Assembly: GCA_902605525.1 (NCBI GenBank)
Contig: CACLCV010000006.1
Location: 1-39,729, forward strand
Direction: 5' to 3'
DNA from: an uncultured Gammaproteobacteria bacterium
GTDB taxonomy: Bacteria > Pseudomonadota > Gammaproteobacteria > GCA-002705445 > GCA-002716945
Length of the DNA: 39,729 nt
Each line of letters opens with the position of its first letter. The first letter of the stretch is position 1. The position numbers and the translations under genes are program-made. Of the stretch, positions 10,694 through 39,729 are shown one piece after another. The notes beneath the pieces were generated by a model. It saw only the letters and a program-made list of their open reading frames with translations. It did not search any database and was not told where the DNA came from.

Positions 10694-11785
10694 ATGAAAA
10701 TTAATAAAGTACTGGCTCTATGTTTATCTCCTGACCAGGGTGGGCTGGAGTTATATTTTACAAAACTTGCTCAGCATTATAGGAATAAGGGCGATAAAAT
10801 GCATGCCGCCTGTGTGAAAAAATCATATATTTCTAAAATTATCACTAACAACAAAGTTGAATGTACGCCCAAAGGTGTTTTCAAATATTTAATCAACTTT
10901 TTTGTGTTAAGGAAATACATTATCAACAATAAATTAAATATTATTCACGTAAGTTGGTCTAAAGACATTTATATAGCAGTGATACTAAAGTTATTAACAC
11001 CTGGAGATATCAAGATAATTTATTATAGACAAATGAAAATATCTCATTCAAAAAAAACCTTCTATCATAAATTCTTTTATAGAAACATAGACTTAGTTTT
11101 AGTTATAACAGATAAACTATGTGAAGAAGCTTATAGGAATCTGCCAATAGATAAAGATAAAGTTCAAAAACTTATATATGGTATCAGTAAACCAAAATCG
11201 GAAATGAAATTAAATAAATCAGATTTTATGATGAGCAATAATATTGACCCAAAAATATTTTCTATTGGTATATTTTCACGTGTTGAAGAACAAAAAGGTC
11301 AACACCTTGTTTTGGAGGCTATGAATATTAGCTCAAATAAGATGCAACTGTGTATTATTGGACACATCATGTCTAAACAATACAAAGAAGATTTACTTAT
11401 CAATGCTAAAATATATCACTTAACCAACTATTTAAAATTTATTAACTTTGTGGATTCACCAATGTCATTCATGCCATTTTTTGATTTAGTGATACTGCCT
11501 ACTTACGAGGAAACATTTGGACTAGTTGCTGCAGAAGCAATGATTATGGGTGTACCAGTTATTGGAAGTGATGCCGGTGGTGTACCAGAAATTATCTCAC
11601 ATGGTACTAATGGCCTTTTATTTGATACAAAAAATGCTAGCGACCTTTCAAAAAAAATTGATACATTGTATGAAAATAAAACTTTAAGGGATTCACTGGT
11701 TTCTAATGCATCTAAATATGCTTATGAGCAGTATGATTATGATAAACATTTTGATAAATTAGAGAAAATATTTGACGCTTTATAA
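10694..11785 (+). CDS. Glycosyltransferase family 4 (GT-B)
   Basis: GIFSRVEEQKGQHLVLEAM, PTYEETFGLVAAEAMIMGVPVIGSDAGGVPEII motifs. Confidence 0.9.
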   Translation: MKINKVLALCLSPDQGGLELYFTKLAQHYRNKGDKMHAACVKKSYISKIITNNKVECTPKGVFKYLINFFVLRKYIINNKLNIIHVSWSKDIYIAVILKLLTPGDIKIIYYRQMKISHSKKTFYHKFFYRNIDLVLVITDKLCEEAYRNLPIDKDKVQKLIYGISKPKSEMKLNKSDFMMSNNIDPKIFSIGIFSRVEEQKGQHLVLEAMNISSNKMQLCIIGHIMSKQYKEDLLINAKIYHLTNYLKFINFVDSPMSFMPFFDLVILPTYEETFGLVAAEAMIMGVPVIGSDAGGVPEIISHGTNGLLFDTKNASDLSKKIDTLYENKTLRDSLVSNASKYAYEQYDYDKHFDKLEKIFDAL

Positions 11786-28136: not shown

Positions 28137-29003
28137 TCATCTTCTTTTCCACACATCAGTTGCTCCCTCAGGTCTAGGTTCTGGTATTGAATCAAATTTT
28201 ATATTTTCTTTACCATTATAAATCAAGAAATGTTTGCCCTTTGCTCTGCCTAGTAAGATTACATTTGTCTCTTTAGCAACATTTAAACCCATCTCTGTAA
28301 TACCTGATCGTGATAATAGAACACCAATATTCATTTGAGCAACTTTAATTACCATCTCTGATGTTAATCTACCTGTAGTATAAAATATTTTCCCTTCACC
28401 TTGGATATCATTCAGCCACATATTGCCTGCAATTGCATCTACAGCATTATGTCTTCCAACGTCTTCTACAAAATCTAATATTTTATCTTGACTACACAGA
28501 GCACACCCATGAACTGCGCCAGATTTTCTGTAAATTTCATTTTTATCATGAAGAAGTTTTAAGAGTTTATATATTGTTGATTGTTTGATATTAAATGAGC
28601 TCACTTTTTTTTCTTTGAGCTCATCCATTATTCCTCCAAATGTTGTTCCTTGCCCACAACCGGAGGTGACAACTTTATGTTTAAGTTTATTCTTAACCTT
28701 CGCAAGATCTAAACCTTTAGTCGTAACAGCCGCAGAGTTAACAGACCAATCTACATGAACAGACTCTAGTTGAGTAATATCATTAATAATGCCTTGATTT
28801 CTAAGATAACCAATCACTAGTGCTTCAGGATAATGCCCTAGAGTCATCAATGTAACTATCTCTTTTTTATCTAAGTAGATTGTAAGAGGTAATTCACCCG
28901 TAATTGGAAAAAATCTGTCAGAGTTATACTCATCTGTAACTTTAATCTCAGAAGTATCTGGCCTTTTTGATTTCGTAAGGTCAATTTTGTTTTTATTATC
29001 CAT
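28137..29003 (-). CDS. fdhD: Formate dehydrogenase accessory sulfurtransferase FdhD
   Basis: TSGCGQGTTFG, SGAVHGCALC, EDVGRHNAVDAIAG, TTGRLTSEMVIK, LLSRSGITEMGLNVA. Confidence 0.94.
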   Translation of the reverse strand: MDNKNKIDLTKSKRPDTSEIKVTDEYNSDRFFPITGELPLTIYLDKKEIVTLMTLGHYPEALVIGYLRNQGIINDITQLESVHVDWSVNSAAVTTKGLDLAKVKNKLKHKVVTSGCGQGTTFGGIMDELKEKKVSSFNIKQSTIYKLLKLLHDKNEIYRKSGAVHGCALCSQDKILDFVEDVGRHNAVDAIAGNMWLNDIQGEGKIFYTTGRLTSEMVIKVAQMNIGVLLSRSGITEMGLNVAKETNVILLGRAKGKHFLIYNGKENIKFDSIPEPRPEGATDVWKRR

Positions 29004-32434: not shown

Positions 32435-35191
32435 CTAATGTCTAGTATTACTTTTTATGTTTACAGCACAGAATTTAAACTCTGGTATCTTGGCGAAAGG
32501 ATCTAATGCAGAATTTGTGAGTAAGTTAGCAGCAGATTCAACATAGCAAAACGGTATAAATATTTGTCCAGGTTGCAGCATGTCATCTCTTCTCGCATAG
32601 ACATCAATTTTACCTCGTCTGGACTCGACAGTTATGAGATCACCATCAACAATATCAAATTTTTCCATATCCTCCTGACACAAATTAGCATTTGGGTCAG
32701 GTTCGATTTCATGCAACATAGTTGCTCTTCGAGTCATCGATCCCGTATGCCAATGTTCCAATTGTCTTCCAGTTATTAAAACAAACGGATATGATTCATC
32801 TGGAAGTTCTGCTGCATTAATAAGAGGTGATTTTACAAATTTAGCTTTGCCAGTTTCCGTAGGGAAATCATCTATAAATATTACAGGTTGTCCGGGGTCT
32901 TTTGAATCATCACAAGGGTAAGTAATGGAATGATTCTTCTCAAGCCTATCCCATGTAATCCCTTGTATGCTTGGCATACATTCAGTCATTTCCTTAAAAA
33001 TTTCTTTAGGATGTTTGTAGTTCCAAGTGAGACCCATACCTCTCGCAATTTGTTGGATAATCCACAAGTCTTGTCTTGCATCACCTGGTGGATTAACTGC
33101 TTGGTTACCTAGTTGAACTCTTCGATCAGTATTTGTGAAAGTACCTGTTTTTTCTGGAAAAGCAGATGCTGGAAGAATAATATCAGCATACATTGCAGTT
33201 TCTGTTAAGAAAATATCTTGTACTACAAGGTGCTCTAGCTTTGAAAGTGCATTTCTTGCATGATTTAAATCAGGATCAGACATTGCAGGATTTTCTCCCA
33301 TAACATATAGGCCTTTAATTCTTCCTTTGGTGATTTCATACATAATCTCAACAACTGTTAGTCCAGGATTTGGATCAAGTTCAGTATCCCAAAATTTTTC
33401 AAAAAAATTATTTATTTCAGGATTATCAACTCTTTGATAGTCAGGGTAGACCATAGGTATTAATCCAGAGTCTGACGCCCCTTGGACATTATTTTGTCCT
33501 CTTAAAGGATGTAATCCAGTTCCAGGTCTTCCAACTTGTCCTGTCATGAGCGCAAGTGAAATTAATGCCCTTGCATTGTCAGTACCATGAATATGTTGAG
33601 ATATACCCATCCCCCAAAAGATGATGGACGCTGGCGATGATGCATAAATTCTCGCTACTTCATGAATTGTCTGTGCATCGATACCACAAATTGACGCCAT
33701 ATTTTCAGGAGTGAAATCGTTTAAGTGATTTTTTAGATCTTCAAAGTCTGTTGTTCTCTCTTCTATAAATTTTTTATCGATTAAGTTTTGATCTATTATT
33801 GATTTCATTATGGCATTTAGAAGTGCTACGTCTGTATCAGGTTTAAATTGCAAATAATGAGTTGCATGTCTGGCTAAATCATTTCTCCTGGGATCTAAAA
33901 CTATTAAATTTTTTCCTGCTTTGGCTGCATTTTTTATGAACGTTGCTGCAACAGGATGATTTACTGTAGGGTTTGCTCCAATAACGATGATTGTATCTGC
34001 TTCTGCAACATCTGCAACTTGGTTTGAAACAGCACCTGAACCAATCATTTCTAGAAGAGCTACAACAGAAGATGCATGACATAGTCTTGTGCAATGATCT
34101 ACATTATTATTTTTAAAGCCTGTCCTTATCAGTTTTTGAAACAAATAAGCTTCTTCATTTGAACCTTTTGCACACCCGAAACCTGCAGTTGATTTTACAT
34201 CTAAATCGGTTAGTGATTTGAATTTTTCAGAAGTTCTCTCTATAGCATCTTCCCAAGAGATTGGCTCAAAATAATCTTCTATTCTGTCTAAGTTGAAATC
34301 CTCAGGTTGAATATTCTTAGTAACACCCTTTTTTCTTGCAAGAGGAACAGTTAGTCTTTGTTCACTATTTACATAATTAAATCCATATCTGCCTTTTACG
34401 CACAGTCTGCTCATATTAGCAGGCCCATCTCTTCCCTCTGCGAAAAGTATTTTGTCATCTTTGATATTGTAAGTAAGCAAACAGCCGACGCCGCAATATG
34501 GACATACACTATCTACTTTTTTATCAGGGATAACTTTACCGATTTCTTTTGATGGCATTAATGCACCTGTTGGGCAAGCTTGAACACACTCTCCACAACC
34601 AACGCATGTACTAGTTCCCATAGGATCATCTAAATCAAATATAATTTCTGATGCGAGACCTCTTTGAGCGTATCCGATGACATCATTTACCTGTTCTTCC
34701 CTACAAGCCCTTACGCATCTCGTACATTGTATGCATGCATCTAAATTTACAGCAATTGCAGGATGAGATAAGTCATGTTTATTTTGTACTTTAGAGGGAA
34801 AACGTGTCTCTTGGACTTCAAGTTTATCTGACCAATGCTTAAGCTCGGAGTTTGGATCATACAGTTCTTTTGATACATCTGATTGAAGTAATTCTATTAC
34901 AACTTTTTGTGAGTGAATGACTCGGTCATTATGTGTGTTAATAACCATACCATCATGTACTTTTCTAACACATGAAGGTTGAAGAGCTCTTTCTCCCTCT
35001 ATCTCAACTACACAAACTCTACAGTTTCCATCGGGCCTCATGCCTTCTTTGTAACAAAGGTGCGGAATTTCAACACCAATTCTTTTTGAGACTTCAAGAA
35101 TTGTCTCATCTGTATTTGCAGAGTATTCCTCTCCATTCAATGTGATGGAACAATTGATATCATGATTAATATCTTCAGGTTTTGCCGACAT
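32435..35191 (-). CDS. NAD-dependent formate dehydrogenase alpha (molybdo/tungsto) subunit, FdsA/Fdh1A-like
   Basis: N-terminal 2Fe-2S (GNCRVCVVEIEGERALQPSC), 4Fe-4S motifs (CIQCTRCVRACREEQ, CVGCGECVQACPTGAL, CPYCGVGCLLTY), VDHCTRLCHASS (Cys, not Sec), GMGISQHIHGTDNARAL. Confidence 0.95.
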   Translation of the reverse strand: MSAKPEDINHDINCSITLNGEEYSANTDETILEVSKRIGVEIPHLCYKEGMRPDGNCRVCVVEIEGERALQPSCVRKVHDGMVINTHNDRVIHSQKVVIELLQSDVSKELYDPNSELKHWSDKLEVQETRFPSKVQNKHDLSHPAIAVNLDACIQCTRCVRACREEQVNDVIGYAQRGLASEIIFDLDDPMGTSTCVGCGECVQACPTGALMPSKEIGKVIPDKKVDSVCPYCGVGCLLTYNIKDDKILFAEGRDGPANMSRLCVKGRYGFNYVNSEQRLTVPLARKKGVTKNIQPEDFNLDRIEDYFEPISWEDAIERTSEKFKSLTDLDVKSTAGFGCAKGSNEEAYLFQKLIRTGFKNNNVDHCTRLCHASSVVALLEMIGSGAVSNQVADVAEADTIIVIGANPTVNHPVAATFIKNAAKAGKNLIVLDPRRNDLARHATHYLQFKPDTDVALLNAIMKSIIDQNLIDKKFIEERTTDFEDLKNHLNDFTPENMASICGIDAQTIHEVARIYASSPASIIFWGMGISQHIHGTDNARALISLALMTGQVGRPGTGLHPLRGQNNVQGASDSGLIPMVYPDYQRVDNPEINNFFEKFWDTELDPNPGLTVVEIMYEITKGRIKGLYVMGENPAMSDPDLNHARNALSKLEHLVVQDIFLTETAMYADIILPASAFPEKTGTFTNTDRRVQLGNQAVNPPGDARQDLWIIQQIARGMGLTWNYKHPKEIFKEMTECMPSIQGITWDRLEKNHSITYPCDDSKDPGQPVIFIDDFPTETGKAKFVKSPLINAAELPDESYPFVLITGRQLEHWHTGSMTRRATMLHEIEPDPNANLCQEDMEKFDIVDGDLITVESRRGKIDVYARRDDMLQPGQIFIPFCYVESAANLLTNSALDPFAKIPEFKFCAVNIKSNTRH

Positions 35192-36854
35192 CTTTTACCT
35201 CATTCGAGAAATATTTTAACACAGATTTTATAGGATTAGATGCTGCTTGACCTAGACCACATATAGAAGCATCTGACATTGTTTGGCTTAAGTCTTCTAG
35301 AAGACTTATATTCCATTTCTTATCTTGCATAAGTTCAGAGGCTTTAGATGTCCCAGCTCTGCATGGAGTACATTTACCACACGATTCATGCTTGAAAAAA
35401 TCAATAGTTGTTTTTGCAGCGTCTCTTGCTTTATCTTTATCAGAAAGTACAACGACTGCGCCTGACCCTATAAAACATCCATATTCTTCAAGCGTGCCAA
35501 AATCTAAAGGAATATTATTCATGCTTGCTGGTAGAATACCACCCGATGCTCCACCTGGAAAATAACCATAGAACTCATGCCCTTCTAACATTCCACCGGC
35601 ATAATCATCTATTAATTTTTGAACTGTAATTCCAGCAGGAGCTAAATGTACACCAGGTTTTTTTATTCTTCCGCTAACAGAAAAAGATCTTAACCCTTTT
35701 CTGCCATTGGCGCCTTGATTTGCGAACCAATCTGATCCCTTATCTAATATATCTCTTATCCAAAAAAGAGTTTCCATATTATGTTCCAATGTTGGTCTTC
35801 CAAATAAACCAACTTGAGCAACAAAAGGCGGACGGAGTCGAGGCATACCTCTTTTGCCTTCTATAGACTCAATCATTGCTGATTCTTCTCCACATATATA
35901 TGCACCAGCTCCACGTCTCATCTCAATTTCAGGAATATCTGCGAAATGGTTTTTGATCTTATCTATTTCCGCTTCCATAATGTTTTTAACAGCAGGGTAT
36001 TCATCTCTCAAGTAAATATATATTTTATCTATACCCACTACTTTAGATGCTATTAACATGCCTTCAAAAAATCTATGTGGATCTGATTCAAGATAGAACC
36101 TATCTTTGAAAGTACCAGGTTCGCCTTCATCAATATTAATAGCAAGAAGCCTTGGAGCTTCTTGTTCTCTTAGTATTCTCCATTTTCTACCAGCCGGGAA
36201 ACCTGCGCCACCTAGGCCTTTAAGTTCTGATGCTTCAAGAATTTCCACAGCACTTTCATGAGAAATTTTCTTATTAACAATCGATTCATAAATTTCGTAC
36301 CCACCATCAGAGATATATTTATCTAGATTTATATAATTAGGAATCTCGGGATGAAATGCTTTGGCATCAATATTTTTTTTGATTTCTTTAAAAGTTGCAT
36401 TATCAATCGGATTAAACTTGACGACTGCTGCTGGCGCAGACTGACATCTACCTATACATGGTACTTTTTGGACTCTAACAGTGCCTTTGTAATAATCATC
36501 AACAGTTTTTGCAAGCTCATTAGCACCATTCATTTCGCAAGTAACTGAGTCGCAAATTCTAACAGTAAGTGATGGCGGCTTGTCTGAATCAGTGTCTACA
36601 ACATCAAAGTGATGATAAAAAGTTGCAACTTCATAAACTTCGGTTTGAGAAATACCCATAAGACTAGCCAGAGCTGTCATGTAATTTTTAGTTATTGCAC
36701 CCTGAGAATCCTGTATTTTATGAAGGTATTCAATCAGATGATCTCTTCTGTATGAGGAGGTATCAAGGATAGTCTCAAGTTTACCTAAGACATCAAAATC
36801 AACTTTGCGACCTCTCGGCCTCAGAGTAATTTTATTCTTAAGTGTTTTTTTCAT
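35175..36854 (-). CDS. NAD-dependent formate dehydrogenase, fused NuoE-NuoF-like subunit (FdsG-FdsB / Fdh1B-like)
   Basis: N-terminal thioredoxin-like NuoE domain (ICDSVTCEMNGA, KVPCIGRCQSAPA) followed by NuoF domain (LKGLGGAGFPAGRKW, NIDEGEPGTFKDR, GAGAYICGEESAMIESIEGKRG, CGKCTPCRAGT). Confidence 0.95.
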   Translation of the reverse strand: MKKTLKNKITLRPRGRKVDFDVLGKLETILDTSSYRRDHLIEYLHKIQDSQGAITKNYMTALASLMGISQTEVYEVATFYHHFDVVDTDSDKPPSLTVRICDSVTCEMNGANELAKTVDDYYKGTVRVQKVPCIGRCQSAPAAVVKFNPIDNATFKEIKKNIDAKAFHPEIPNYINLDKYISDGGYEIYESIVNKKISHESAVEILEASELKGLGGAGFPAGRKWRILREQEAPRLLAINIDEGEPGTFKDRFYLESDPHRFFEGMLIASKVVGIDKIYIYLRDEYPAVKNIMEAEIDKIKNHFADIPEIEMRRGAGAYICGEESAMIESIEGKRGMPRLRPPFVAQVGLFGRPTLEHNMETLFWIRDILDKGSDWFANQGANGRKGLRSFSVSGRIKKPGVHLAPAGITVQKLIDDYAGGMLEGHEFYGYFPGGASGGILPASMNNIPLDFGTLEEYGCFIGSGAVVVLSDKDKARDAAKTTIDFFKHESCGKCTPCRAGTSKASELMQDKKWNISLLEDLSQTMSDASICGLGQAASNPIKSVLKYFSNEVKDVGKT

Positions 36855-36950: not shown

Positions 36951-37322
36951 ATGAGCCAAGAAAAAGTATATTCAGAAGATGAGATTAATACGTACTTAAC
37001 AGATAAATTACCCCATTGGTTTTATGAAAATGGATGGATAAGGAGGAAATATAAAACTAGTGGGTGGAAAGGCACACTTATGGTAGTTAATACTGTAGGA
37101 CATTTAGCAGAGGCCGCATGGCACCATCCTGACATTGCTGCATCTTATGGTTTTGCGATAGTAAAACTTCAAAACCATGCTGCAAAGGGCATTACCGACA
37201 AAGACTTCTTACTTGCTGAGAAAATCGAATCAGTTGTTCAATGGCAGCCGTCGAAAGAAGATAATACTCTTGAAGGTACACCAGAGGATCCAAGATTTAA
37301 GTATGTCAAATATGATGAGTAA
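36951..37322 (+). CDS. 4a-hydroxytetrahydrobiopterin dehydratase (PCD/DCoH family)
   Basis: EAAWHHPDIAASYGFAIVKLQNHAAKGITDKD fits the PCD signature E-x3-HHP-x5-Y-x9-H-x8-D; SD AAGGAGAG upstream. Confidence 0.88.
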   Translation: MSQEKVYSEDEINTYLTDKLPHWFYENGWIRRKYKTSGWKGTLMVVNTVGHLAEAAWHHPDIAASYGFAIVKLQNHAAKGITDKDFLLAEKIESVVQWQPSKEDNTLEGTPEDPRFKYVKYDE

Positions 37323-37325
37323 GTA

Positions 37326-37910
37326 TTAGAGAAATTTTTTTACAATTCTTGTTATTTCTGTACTTGGTATTCCATTAGGTATAATTTTTTTTACCTGAAG
37401 TTTTTTATCAAGTACATAAATATTAGAACTGTGTTCAACTATATAACTTTTATTTTTTGGATCTACAAATTCATATTTAGTTTTAAAAAATTTTGTTAAG
37501 GCGTCAATATTCTCTTTATTAGAAGTTAATGCAGCAATCCTATTATCAAAAAAATCTACATATTCACGGACTTTTTTATAATCATCACGATCATAATCGA
37601 CACTTACAAACATCGGTAATACTTGGCTAGACTCATCGCCCAAACCTTTCATCACCCGTGCCATGTCCAATACTGTAGTAGGGCAAACATCAGGGCAATG
37701 CGTATAACCAAAAAAAACTAAAAGAACTTTATCTTCATAATCATTAAATTTTGTAATTTTATTATTCTTATCGTAGAAACTTACTCTCTCAAACACATTT
37801 GACATATCAGGGAATGCTTTTGAGATATCTGAATATGAATTAGTAGGACTAACTATTACCAAGGTTAAAAGTATCAGTAAAGTGATTATCGATGTGTGAA
37901 ATATTCGCAT
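37326..37910 (-). CDS. SCO1/SenC/PrrC-type thioredoxin-fold copper protein
   Basis: VFFGYTHCPDVCPTTV, FVSVDYDRDD, VEHSSNIYVLD; N-terminal signal/TM. Confidence 0.92.
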   Translation of the reverse strand: MRIFHTSIITLLILLTLVIVSPTNSYSDISKAFPDMSNVFERVSFYDKNNKITKFNDYEDKVLLVFFGYTHCPDVCPTTVLDMARVMKGLGDESSQVLPMFVSVDYDRDDYKKVREYVDFFDNRIAALTSNKENIDALTKFFKTKYEFVDPKNKSYIVEHSSNIYVLDKKLQVKKIIPNGIPSTEITRIVKKFL

Positions 37911-38158: not shown

Positions 38159-39391
38159 ATGATCGGACAAATACTTTTAAACACACGTTACCTACTTGCA
38201 CCAATACTAATTATAGTAGCGGGTGCTGGTGTCTTACTAGGCGGTATTATGGCTTGGTTAGGCGTTGTATTACTTTTTGTAGGTCTACTAGTAGACATCG
38301 CTACAAAATTTGAAACAACAGGCGTTGGGTATGATGAAAACGGTGAAAGTCTTGGATGGCCTACATTCCAAAACTTAACAATGTATTTCATGTTACCTAT
38401 ATTCGTACTATTCCAATTAGTAATGGCATGGAGACTTTATACATTCATGGCACTAGGTGGAGCAGAAGGCGCGGTAGTAATGGAATTAATTCCAGGCATT
38501 TTAGTAATGCACGAAGGAATTACAGCTGTTAACTTAATCGGTGCTACATTATCATCAGGTATCTTTATAGGTATCGGTATTATTTACGGACATGAACTAT
38601 CACATACCAAAGGTTTTGGTTTTGTAATTTCACGTTTGATGATGGCATTATCAGGTTCAGCACATTTCTGCTATGCACACGTTTACAACCATCACTTAGA
38701 ACTTGCTAGTGAAGATGATCCTGCAACTGCACCTCGCGGTCGTACAATTTATGGTCATTACCCACTATCATATCTAGGACAATCTAAATTCTTATACAAC
38801 ATGGAAAAAGAAAGACTTTCAAGAATGGGAGTTTCATTCATTTCATGGCAAAACCGTTGGATTCGTGGTTATCTAATGGCGGTACCTACAGTAGCACTAT
38901 TCTTTATGGCTGGTGGCTGGATAGGTATGGCTGTACTAGCTACAGTCTGGGGAATTTCAAACTTCGAATTAGAAGCATTGAACTACCTAGAGCACTACGG
39001 TTTAATACGTGTAAAAGATCAACCTATCGATTATCGCCATAACTGGGATAACTCAACATGTTTCACAGCATGGTTCTTCATCGAAATCGGTCGTCAAGCT
39101 GACCACCATGATCGTGGAGAAACACATTTCTGGGAACTTGAAAACGTAGGTTGCCCTAATACAGGTTGGGGATACTTTGTAGTATTCTTCATCGCACTTG
39201 TACCGCCAATATGGCACTGGTATATGCGTAAAAGATTAGCTGCATGGGATACTCATTTTGCTACAGACGAAGAAAAAGCGATTGCTGCAAGAATCAACAA
39301 AGAAGTTGGTTACGAAGGCACACCTTTCTCAGGCGATGTATTACAAGATGCTGGTAACGTTGACCTTGGCTTAAGATCAGCTAAGAAGTAA
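38159..39391 (+). CDS. XylM/AlkB-like membrane-bound diiron monooxygenase
   Basis: His motifs GHELSHTK, HVYNHHLELASEDDPATAPRGRTIY, NYLEHYGLIRVKDQP, QADHHDRGETHFWEL; multiple TM segments; by recall closer to XylM than to GPo1 AlkB. Strong SD GGAGGT. Confidence 0.9.
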   Translation: MIGQILLNTRYLLAPILIIVAGAGVLLGGIMAWLGVVLLFVGLLVDIATKFETTGVGYDENGESLGWPTFQNLTMYFMLPIFVLFQLVMAWRLYTFMALGGAEGAVVMELIPGILVMHEGITAVNLIGATLSSGIFIGIGIIYGHELSHTKGFGFVISRLMMALSGSAHFCYAHVYNHHLELASEDDPATAPRGRTIYGHYPLSYLGQSKFLYNMEKERLSRMGVSFISWQNRWIRGYLMAVPTVALFFMAGGWIGMAVLATVWGISNFELEALNYLEHYGLIRVKDQPIDYRHNWDNSTCFTAWFFIEIGRQADHHDRGETHFWELENVGCPNTGWGYFVVFFIALVPPIWHWYMRKRLAAWDTHFATDEEKAIAARINKEVGYEGTPFSGDVLQDAGNVDLGLRSAKK

Positions 39392-39418
39392 CTTTACTCC
39401 TAAGCAGTAAGTAAATTT

Positions 39419-39450
39419 GAAGGTGCCTGGATTTCGATCTAGACACCTTC
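39419..39450 (+). promoter_or_regulatory. Intercistronic hairpin with UUCG loop between monooxygenase and ferredoxin genes
   Basis: GAAGGTG-c-CTGGAT-TTCG-ATCTAG-a-CACCTTC; 13 pairs (one G-U) with a single C-A mismatch. Confidence 0.65.
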
Positions 39451-39522
39451 ATCTCATTAAAGGGAATGGGTTTTTAAGATACATGTCTTATCAATCAACA
39501 AAATATAAACTCGGAGAAAAAT

Positions 39523-39702
39523 ATGAAAGTAACTTATAATGCAGACGTATGTACACACGCTGGAGAATGCGTAAAAGGTGCACCAAATGTATTTAAGGTA
39601 GTAGATGGTCAATTTGTAATTGACACAGCTGCTGATAGTGAAGAAAATATAAGAGCTACTGTTGGTAACTGTCCGTCAGGCGCACTTGTAATCGAAGAGT
39701 AA
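39523..39702 (+). CDS. Small ferredoxin (59 aa), Fer4_19 or 3Fe-4S-type
   Basis: MKVTYNADVCTHAGECVKGAPNVFKVVDGQFVIDTAADSEENIRATVGNCPSGALVIEE; C-x5-C-x33-C-P; SD GGAGA; just below ORF-track cutoff. Confidence 0.85.
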   Translation: MKVTYNADVCTHAGECVKGAPNVFKVVDGQFVIDTAADSEENIRATVGNCPSGALVIEE

Positions 39703-39729
39703 AAATTTAACTAACAATTCATAATTAGG

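Follow-up and report, generated by a model that had tools for sequence, protein, structure and literature searches.

A membrane hydroxylase operon nested in a methanethiol oxidase locus of marine Gammaproteobacteria is a candidate for the first step of DMS catabolism

The stretch of DNA analysed in this study (39,729 nucleotides, hereafter the window) ends with the genes of a putative membrane hydroxylase (hereafter HYD) and of a small ferredoxin, both open reading frames being preceded by a Shine-Dalgarno-like GGAG (Table 1). Upstream of HYD, the genes of a SCO1 protein, a pterin-4a-carbinolamine dehydratase (PCD) family protein and the formate dehydrogenase (FDH) subunits FdhB and FdhA follow in this order.

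Table 1. Features of the window, with position, strand and the evidence used for assignment
Feature	Position	Strand	Basis
HYD, AlkB/XylM-fold membrane hydroxylase, 410 aa	38159..39391	+	ORF, Pfam, PDB match, tree, alignment, AF2 model
Clade-specific QX2HH box GRQADHH, residues 311-317 of HYD	39089..39109	+	Gln in clade, His in outgroups
Ferredoxin, Fer4_19, 59 aa	39523..39702	+	ORF, Pfam, motif C10-x2-H13-x2-C16-x33-C50P
Window end, cutting a longer operon 27 bases past the ferredoxin stop	39703..39729		Judged from relatives
SCO1/SenC copper chaperone, typical mtoX neighbour	37326..37910	-	Domain search, relatives, literature
PCD family protein, in conserved mto module	36951..37322	+	Domain search, relatives
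NAD-dependent formate dehydrogenase, diaphorase (NuoE/NuoF-like) subunit	35175..36854	-	Sequence; module beside mtoX in L173 and L176
NAD-dependent formate dehydrogenase, catalytic (molybdopterin) subunit	32435..35191	-	Sequence, relatives
FdhD-like formate dehydrogenase accessory protein	28137..29003	-	Sequence inspection of translation

HYD matched the Pfam family FA_desaturase (4.4e-27), and no model in the NCBIfam search named the protein. Its significant sequence matches in the PDB were AlkB structures only (E-values of 6e-29 and 6e-26). The AF2 model (pLDDT 87, pTM 0.87) likewise had the AlkB structures 8f6t and 8sbb as its only significant fold matches (TM 0.71-0.81); no desaturase occurred among the significant PDB matches by sequence or by fold. 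XylM of pWW0, a full-length relative, is 27% identical to HYD across 94% of the latter. A luciferase-family domain was not found in HYD with Pfam, and the protein is thus not of the DmoA type. The initial annotation of an AlkB/XylM-like hydroxylase was therefore borne out by the Pfam family, the AlkB matches, the fold and the identity to XylM.

The ferredoxin belongs to the Pfam family Fer4_19 (PF06902; 6.8e-17, 61.7 bits, cut-off 24). It possesses three cysteine residues (C10, C16 and C50, the last one followed by proline), a histidine (His13) between the first two and a CPSGA sequence, and both the reading frame and the family match agree with the three-cysteine protein with CxxHxxC...CP motif that had initially been described beside HYD. 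Judged from this motif, the cluster is presumably [3Fe-4S] or a His-ligated [4Fe-4S]. Ferredoxins with the motif CXXHXXC(X)nCP are known as partners of bacterial cytochromes P450 and were isolated as [3Fe-4S] proteins (PMC6237146). The ferredoxin of the window shares with them the motif, the His at the variable site and the length of about 60 amino acids, but is a member of Fer4_19 and presumably serves a membrane diiron hydroxylase instead of a P450. In a survey of gene neighbourhoods, HYD and the ferredoxin occurred together without exception in those loci of the window's own clade in which both genes are covered, and because of this conservation the two families and their pairing are not due to chance.

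The continuation of the operon beyond the window end was deduced from a close relative, L021, whose DNA is 95% identical to the window over 7.6 kb. There, the ferredoxin gene is followed by genes for a GST-like protein, a XylA/BenC-type reductase, a protein with two transmembrane segments, a FadL-like porin and mtoX. The same gene order was observed in the close relatives L003, L004, L007-L012 and L072, with MtoX present where the available sequence extends that far. In these relatives, the GST-like protein comprises 216, the reductase about 363, the two-TM protein 90 and the porin about 500 amino acids. The porin of the window's family was not recognised in the Pfam search; it grouped with FadL-type proteins of Methylophaga in blastp clustering, and its designation as FadL-like rests on this clustering. 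MtoX of L021 (453 amino acids) reached 714 bits against the NCBIfam equivalog for methanethiol oxidase (NF052453, cut-off 650) and also matched SBP56.

The reductase carries the domains Fer2, FAD_binding_6 and NAD_binding_1 and is thus of the BenC/MmoC/XylA type. It was located in all of these loci (L003, L004, L007-L012, L021 and L072) and in Methylophaga. In the relatives, it lies two genes past the ferredoxin gene, and the ferredoxin is therefore probably an addition between a XylA-type reductase and HYD and not a replacement of the reductase. No rubredoxin was identified in the cluster, but the initial proposal that the ferredoxin stands in for a XylA-type reductase fails, as the reductase is cut off at the window end. 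An unusual pairing of HYD and ferredoxin without a reductase was accordingly ruled out as an effect of the window edge.

The electron-transfer partners vary within the clade. A Fer4_19 ferredoxin together with a reductase was detected in the window's family, in Methylophaga and in f45, a reductase without a local Fer4_19 protein in G170 and L159, and a stand-alone [2Fe-2S] ferredoxin (Fer2) in the HYD loci L051 and L065. Many orphan HYD copies (MerR/FabA and AmtB groups) have no reductase, ferredoxin or porin adjoining. Donor-related neighbours of HYD were thus ferredoxins of the Fer4_19 or Fer2 type and a reductase of the BenC/XylA type, and in view of these varied layouts HYD often has a Fer4_19 partner, but one that can be exchanged. 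In genome G295, a Fer4_19 ferredoxin is located beside SCO1-mtoX, while hydroxylase, globin and reductase are encoded elsewhere in the genome, which ties this ferredoxin to the methanethiol pathway.

Several further arrangements of HYD genes were observed. In the window's family, a second HYD paralog stands alone by an AmtB-like transporter gene (L002, G000:C21:9373-9858; full copies in L013-L022). The full copies are about 69-75% identical, and reductase, ferredoxin and mtoX are not located beside them. In Thiothrix-like and sponge-symbiont genomes (L025-L046, e.g. L032:4761-6004), an orphan HYD gene is divergent from the gene of a MerR regulator by fabA; the weak match of this regulator to the B12 photoreceptor CarH (51 bits, cut-off 400) hints at control by light or cobalamin. 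Two genomes each encode identical HYD copies twice, one in a full operon and one as a MerR-linked orphan (L133/L151 in G233 and L134/L152 in G093), which implies recent duplication or gene conversion. Furthermore, in the subclade L052-L068 the HYD gene is accompanied by the gene of a two-TM protein and by two tandem GST-like genes, sometimes duplicated, in place of ferredoxin and reductase.

The genes upstream of HYD belong to an mto locus. MtoX is a copper enzyme, and its gene is known to neighbour SCO1/SenC and mauG (PMC5739008). The SCO1/PCD/Fdh group occurs, whole or in part, beside mtoX in G093 (L176), G295 (L173) and G088 (L175), which belong to other families; at these mtoX loci HYD is absent and is encoded elsewhere in the genome. 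In the window's family, the operon HYD-ferredoxin-GST-reductase-TM-porin sits between SCO1 and MtoX. The HYD operon is therefore nested inside an mto locus in this family. The mto clusters published so far (mtoX-SCO1-mauG; PMC5739008, PMC6548844) have the MtoX equivalog and the SCO1 neighbour in common with this locus, but the upstream oxygenase, whose operon lies between SCO1 and mtoX here, does not figure in the mto loci of these papers. The genes for FdhA and FdhB were found 1.3-5.7 kb upstream of HYD, as initially noted, and the suggestion drawn from them, that HYD acts on a substrate which releases a C1 unit, appears right; this substrate now looks like a methyl-sulfur compound.

In a quick maximum-likelihood tree, the close homologs of HYD formed one clade of 75 rows with full support (SH-aLRT 100, stem 2.1). 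The XylM references formed a separate clade (SH-aLRT 100, stem 3.16) with HYD outside, and AlkB was also placed apart; the deep nodes, where branches are long, are uncertain. An AlkM-like ORF of Acinetobacter with odd composition and a Sphingopyxis row with a very long branch were left out of this tree. HYD is thus not placed inside a characterised clade of alkane hydroxylases.

The clade is also distinguished by its predicted diiron site. In FtAlkB, Fe1 is ligated by His137, 141, 167, 172 and 314, and Fe2 by His171, 272, 311 and 315 and by Glu271 (PMC10113152), and the His residues of AlkB are reported to be invariant (PMC10110569). Eight of the nine His residues conserved in four motifs of AlkB are present in HYD. 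The predicted ligands are H145, H149, H174, H178, H179, E278, H279, Q313, H316 and H317, with Q313 in the place of FtAlkB His311, and the third His box consequently reads QADHH and not HX2HH. In the alignment, from which incomplete loci were left out for this scoring, Gln at the position of His311 was found in the members of the HYD clade (signature GRQ[AGC]DHH), row L069 included, whereas His occupies this position in every AlkB, XylM and other outgroup sequence. HYD therefore resembles AlkB (FtAlkB 8sbb, FtAlkBG 8f6t) in fold, in the boxes HEL(S/A)H, HVYNHH and NYLEHYG with the Fe2 Glu, and in the membrane diiron site, but differs from it in the QX2HH box, in its own clade, in the mtoX/SCO1/FDH neighbourhood and in the absence of a recognisable rubredoxin from the cluster. 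With XylM/XylA of pWW0 it shares the combination of a single membrane hydroxylase with a FAD/[2Fe-2S] reductase and an outer-membrane transporter nearby. XylM keeps HINHH, however, and falls into another clade with another substrate context, and on pWW0 no Fer4_19 ferredoxin, globin or GST is encoded between xylM and the reductase gene, unlike in HYD operons. Front-end desaturases are also known to carry QX2HH boxes.

The association of HYD with mtoX was examined in 369 evenly drawn gammaproteobacterial genomes, with at least 54% identity as the threshold for membership in the HYD clade. HYD was present in 13 genomes from 7 families. MtoX was encoded by 12 of these 13 carriers and by 22 of the 356 non-carriers (Fisher 6e-13), and the one carrier without MtoX was the window's own assembly, which is 73% complete and cut at this locus. 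As the genomes are not independent in this test, counts per family (MtoX in 7/7 HYD families and 16/~171 others; 2e-7) and three separate physical linkages of HYD and mtoX, in the window's family, in Methylophaga and in G170 (1.3 kb), address the dependence in part. The association remained when confounding by sulfur oxidation was tested with SoxB strata: among SoxB-positive genomes, MtoX occurred in 9/10 HYD carriers versus 13/141 others (5e-8), and among SoxB-negative genomes in 3/3 versus 9/215 (1e-4), so HYD does not simply mark sulfur oxidisers. Among the named genomes with a member of the HYD clade, 27 of 30 had an mtoX match, 26 of these with at least 57% identity.

PF00296, the luciferase superfamily of DmoA, was absent from 24 of the 25 genomes of the window's order, and the single match is located on a GC-rich contig and is probably a contamination. 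A luciferase-family gene in G043, the one HYD-negative, mtoX-positive MAG, was considered as a replacement by DmoA and was discarded, its contig being GC-rich and probably a contamination.

These data bear on two readings outside methyl-sulfur catabolism. If HYD were a hydrocarbon hydroxylase (for a short alkane, a xylene-like aromatic compound or a terpene) in bacteria that happen to oxidise sulfur, its closest characterised relatives AlkB and XylM, the FadL-type porin and the XylA-type reductase would be explained. The separate clade with its long stem does not fit, no alcohol or aldehyde dehydrogenase or ring-cleavage genes were recognised in the HYD cluster, and the association with mtoX holds with and without SoxB, while MtoX occurred in only one of six genomes that have only distant AlkB/XylM relatives (30-36%). 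This reading is very improbable, and a plain alkane or xylene hydroxylase was set aside, as clade, ligand and context differ. A lipid desaturase or hydroxylase for the repair or remodelling of membranes exposed to H2O2 from MtoX is quite improbable as well. The Pfam family FA_desaturase, the adjacency of orphan copies to FabA and a CarH-like regulator, and the suggestion made by Kroeber and Schaefer (2019) for MDMS009_226 agree with such a role. On the other hand, sequence and fold are those of AlkB/XylM, the significant PDB matches include no desaturase, and an operon with a XylA-type reductase, a hydrocarbon-type porin and mtoX has a catabolic layout. In addition, 22 of the 34 mtoX-bearing genomes in the sample of 369 lack HYD, so the H2O2 of MtoX does not require it.

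Of 24 Methylophaga genomes, only those of M. thiooxydans and M. sulfidovorans contained HYD, and only these two contained MtoX. These are the Methylophaga species whose growth on DMS goes with mtoX (PMC6548844, PMC9563715); M. aminisulfidivorans reportedly uses methylated sulfur compounds without mtoX. The distance between HYD and mtoX is 7.6 kb in M. thiooxydans DMS010 and about 22 kb in M. sulfidovorans. In both species (L078 and L061), genes for NorQ- and NorD-like proteins are divergent from HYD, which is followed by genes for a truncated globin, the ferredoxin, a GST-like protein, the reductase, a small TM protein, FadL, a globin and a nickel-responsive-like protein. The divergent pair, a CbbQ/NorQ-type AAA+ ATPase and a NorD-like VWA protein (L078:2775-5683 and L061:2796-5694; also in L029 and L030), suggests a chaperone that activates the metal site of HYD in the Methylophaga clade. 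The truncated haemoglobins of HYD operons (L078:7245-7607 and 11254-11745; L160:11219-11617) possibly serve in O2 delivery or in protection against NO.

According to the comparison of DMS with methanol by Kroeber and Schaefer (2019, PMC6548844), a 'fatty acid desaturase' (MDMS009_226) was strongly induced by DMS in M. thiooxydans, together with a NAD(P)H-flavin reductase (MDMS009_61) and a FadL-type porin (MDMS009_906). The tags 97 (methylated-DNA methyltransferase Ogt), 149 (KDPG aldolase Eda) and 211 (mtoX of cluster 1) map to scaffold C25 of DMS010 (292 kb, about 275 ORFs of at least 80 aa), and provided that locus tags run contiguously along scaffolds, MDMS009_226 is located there too, as MDMS009_61 probably is. 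HYD is the sole FA_desaturase on C25, so MDMS009_226 is with high likelihood the HYD of M. thiooxydans, as mapped from the published tags. Cluster 2 of DMS010, with a TlpA protein of 164 amino acids, is located on C16, and MDMS009_906 is more likely the FadL protein on C16 near the second mtoX.

For M. thiooxydans, the first enzyme of DMS degradation was stated to be missing (Kroeber and Schaefer, PMC6548844), and published work found no dmoA in Methylophaga. A methyltransferase route was proposed by Boden et al. (2010, as cited in PMC6548844), according to whom DMS monooxygenase activity was not found in DMS-grown cells, and the induction of MtdA and folate enzymes on DMS fits a route via folate. 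Such a route is conceivable; in our view, though, activity assays of this kind could miss an enzyme that sits in the membrane. It is also conceivable, though rather unlikely, that HYD acts on another methyl-sulfur compound (dimethyl disulfide, a methylthio-alkane, 3-methylthiopropionate or similar), which it would demethylate or hydroxylate to methanethiol, and that DMS is not its main substrate in the window's lineage. Linkage to and co-occurrence with mtoX fit any precursor of methanethiol, and the two to four divergent HYD copies of many genomes may have split substrates. The induction on DMS relative to methanol and the confinement of HYD, within Methylophaga, to the two species that grow on DMS and carry mtoX nevertheless point to DMS, and the FadL-like porin and the AlkB fold favour small hydrophobic over charged compounds.

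Gene order, protein families, the separate clade, the ligand change and the association with mtoX were observed directly, and induction of HYD on DMS in M. thiooxydans comes from the mapping of published data. The link to the methanethiol pathway is strong, and a role of HYD in it is very probable. That HYD is a membrane diiron monooxygenase which converts DMS to methanethiol and formaldehyde is likely. As the catalytic subunit, it would act one step before MtoX. A small hydrophobic substrate, most likely DMS, would be admitted by the FadL-like porin, and the XylA/BenC-type FAD/[2Fe-2S] reductase would oxidise NADH and pass electrons, probably via the ferredoxin, to the diiron site, for which eight His, one Gln and one Glu are predicted as ligands. 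Insertion of oxygen from O2 into a methyl C-H bond would yield CH3-S-CH2OH, which would decompose to methanethiol and formaldehyde. The periplasmic, copper-dependent MtoX, matured by SCO1, would then form formaldehyde and sulfide or sulfane sulfur from methanethiol, and formate would be oxidised by the neighbouring FDH.

S-oxygenation of DMS to DMSO without removal of a methyl group has a precedent in the multicomponent monooxygenase DsoABCDEF (PMC13310141), but is hardly to be expected of HYD, whose tight linkage is to MtoX and FDH, enzymes that need methanethiol and a C1 unit and not DMSO. For demethylation by HYD, the proposed net reaction (DMS + O2 + NADH to methanethiol and formaldehyde) resembles that of DmoA/DmoB of Hyphomicrobium, although the proteins are unrelated, DmoA being a member of the luciferase family that uses FMNH2.

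DMS is described as the largest biogenic input of sulfur from the ocean to the atmosphere (PMC6548844). Open-licence papers from 2015, 2019 and 2022 state that, for Methylophaga and for other degraders without dmoA, the enzyme that starts DMS degradation had not been identified, and two papers from 2026 name DmoA alone for the step from DMS to methanethiol; subscription journals may contain a report outside this search. It appears somewhat more probable than otherwise that, in Methylophaga and several uncultured families of marine Gammaproteobacteria, DMS catabolism begins with an enzyme of the HYD clade, a membrane diiron monooxygenase with a Gln-for-His ligand that is aided by a XylA-type reductase, in part of the clade by a CxxHxxC ferredoxin, and by truncated haemoglobin. 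The clade also offers a naturally occurring replacement of His by Gln in a diiron site of the AlkB type. HYD is a single defined candidate gene, for which partners are known from the gene clusters and which can be counted in metagenomes by its signature, GRQ[AGC]DHH. If the assignment is true, bacteria would have two unrelated solutions for the reaction of DmoA, and HYD would be a marker gene for DMS consumption in the ocean; it would probably be the long-sought first-step enzyme with which many marine bacteria degrade this climate-relevant gas.
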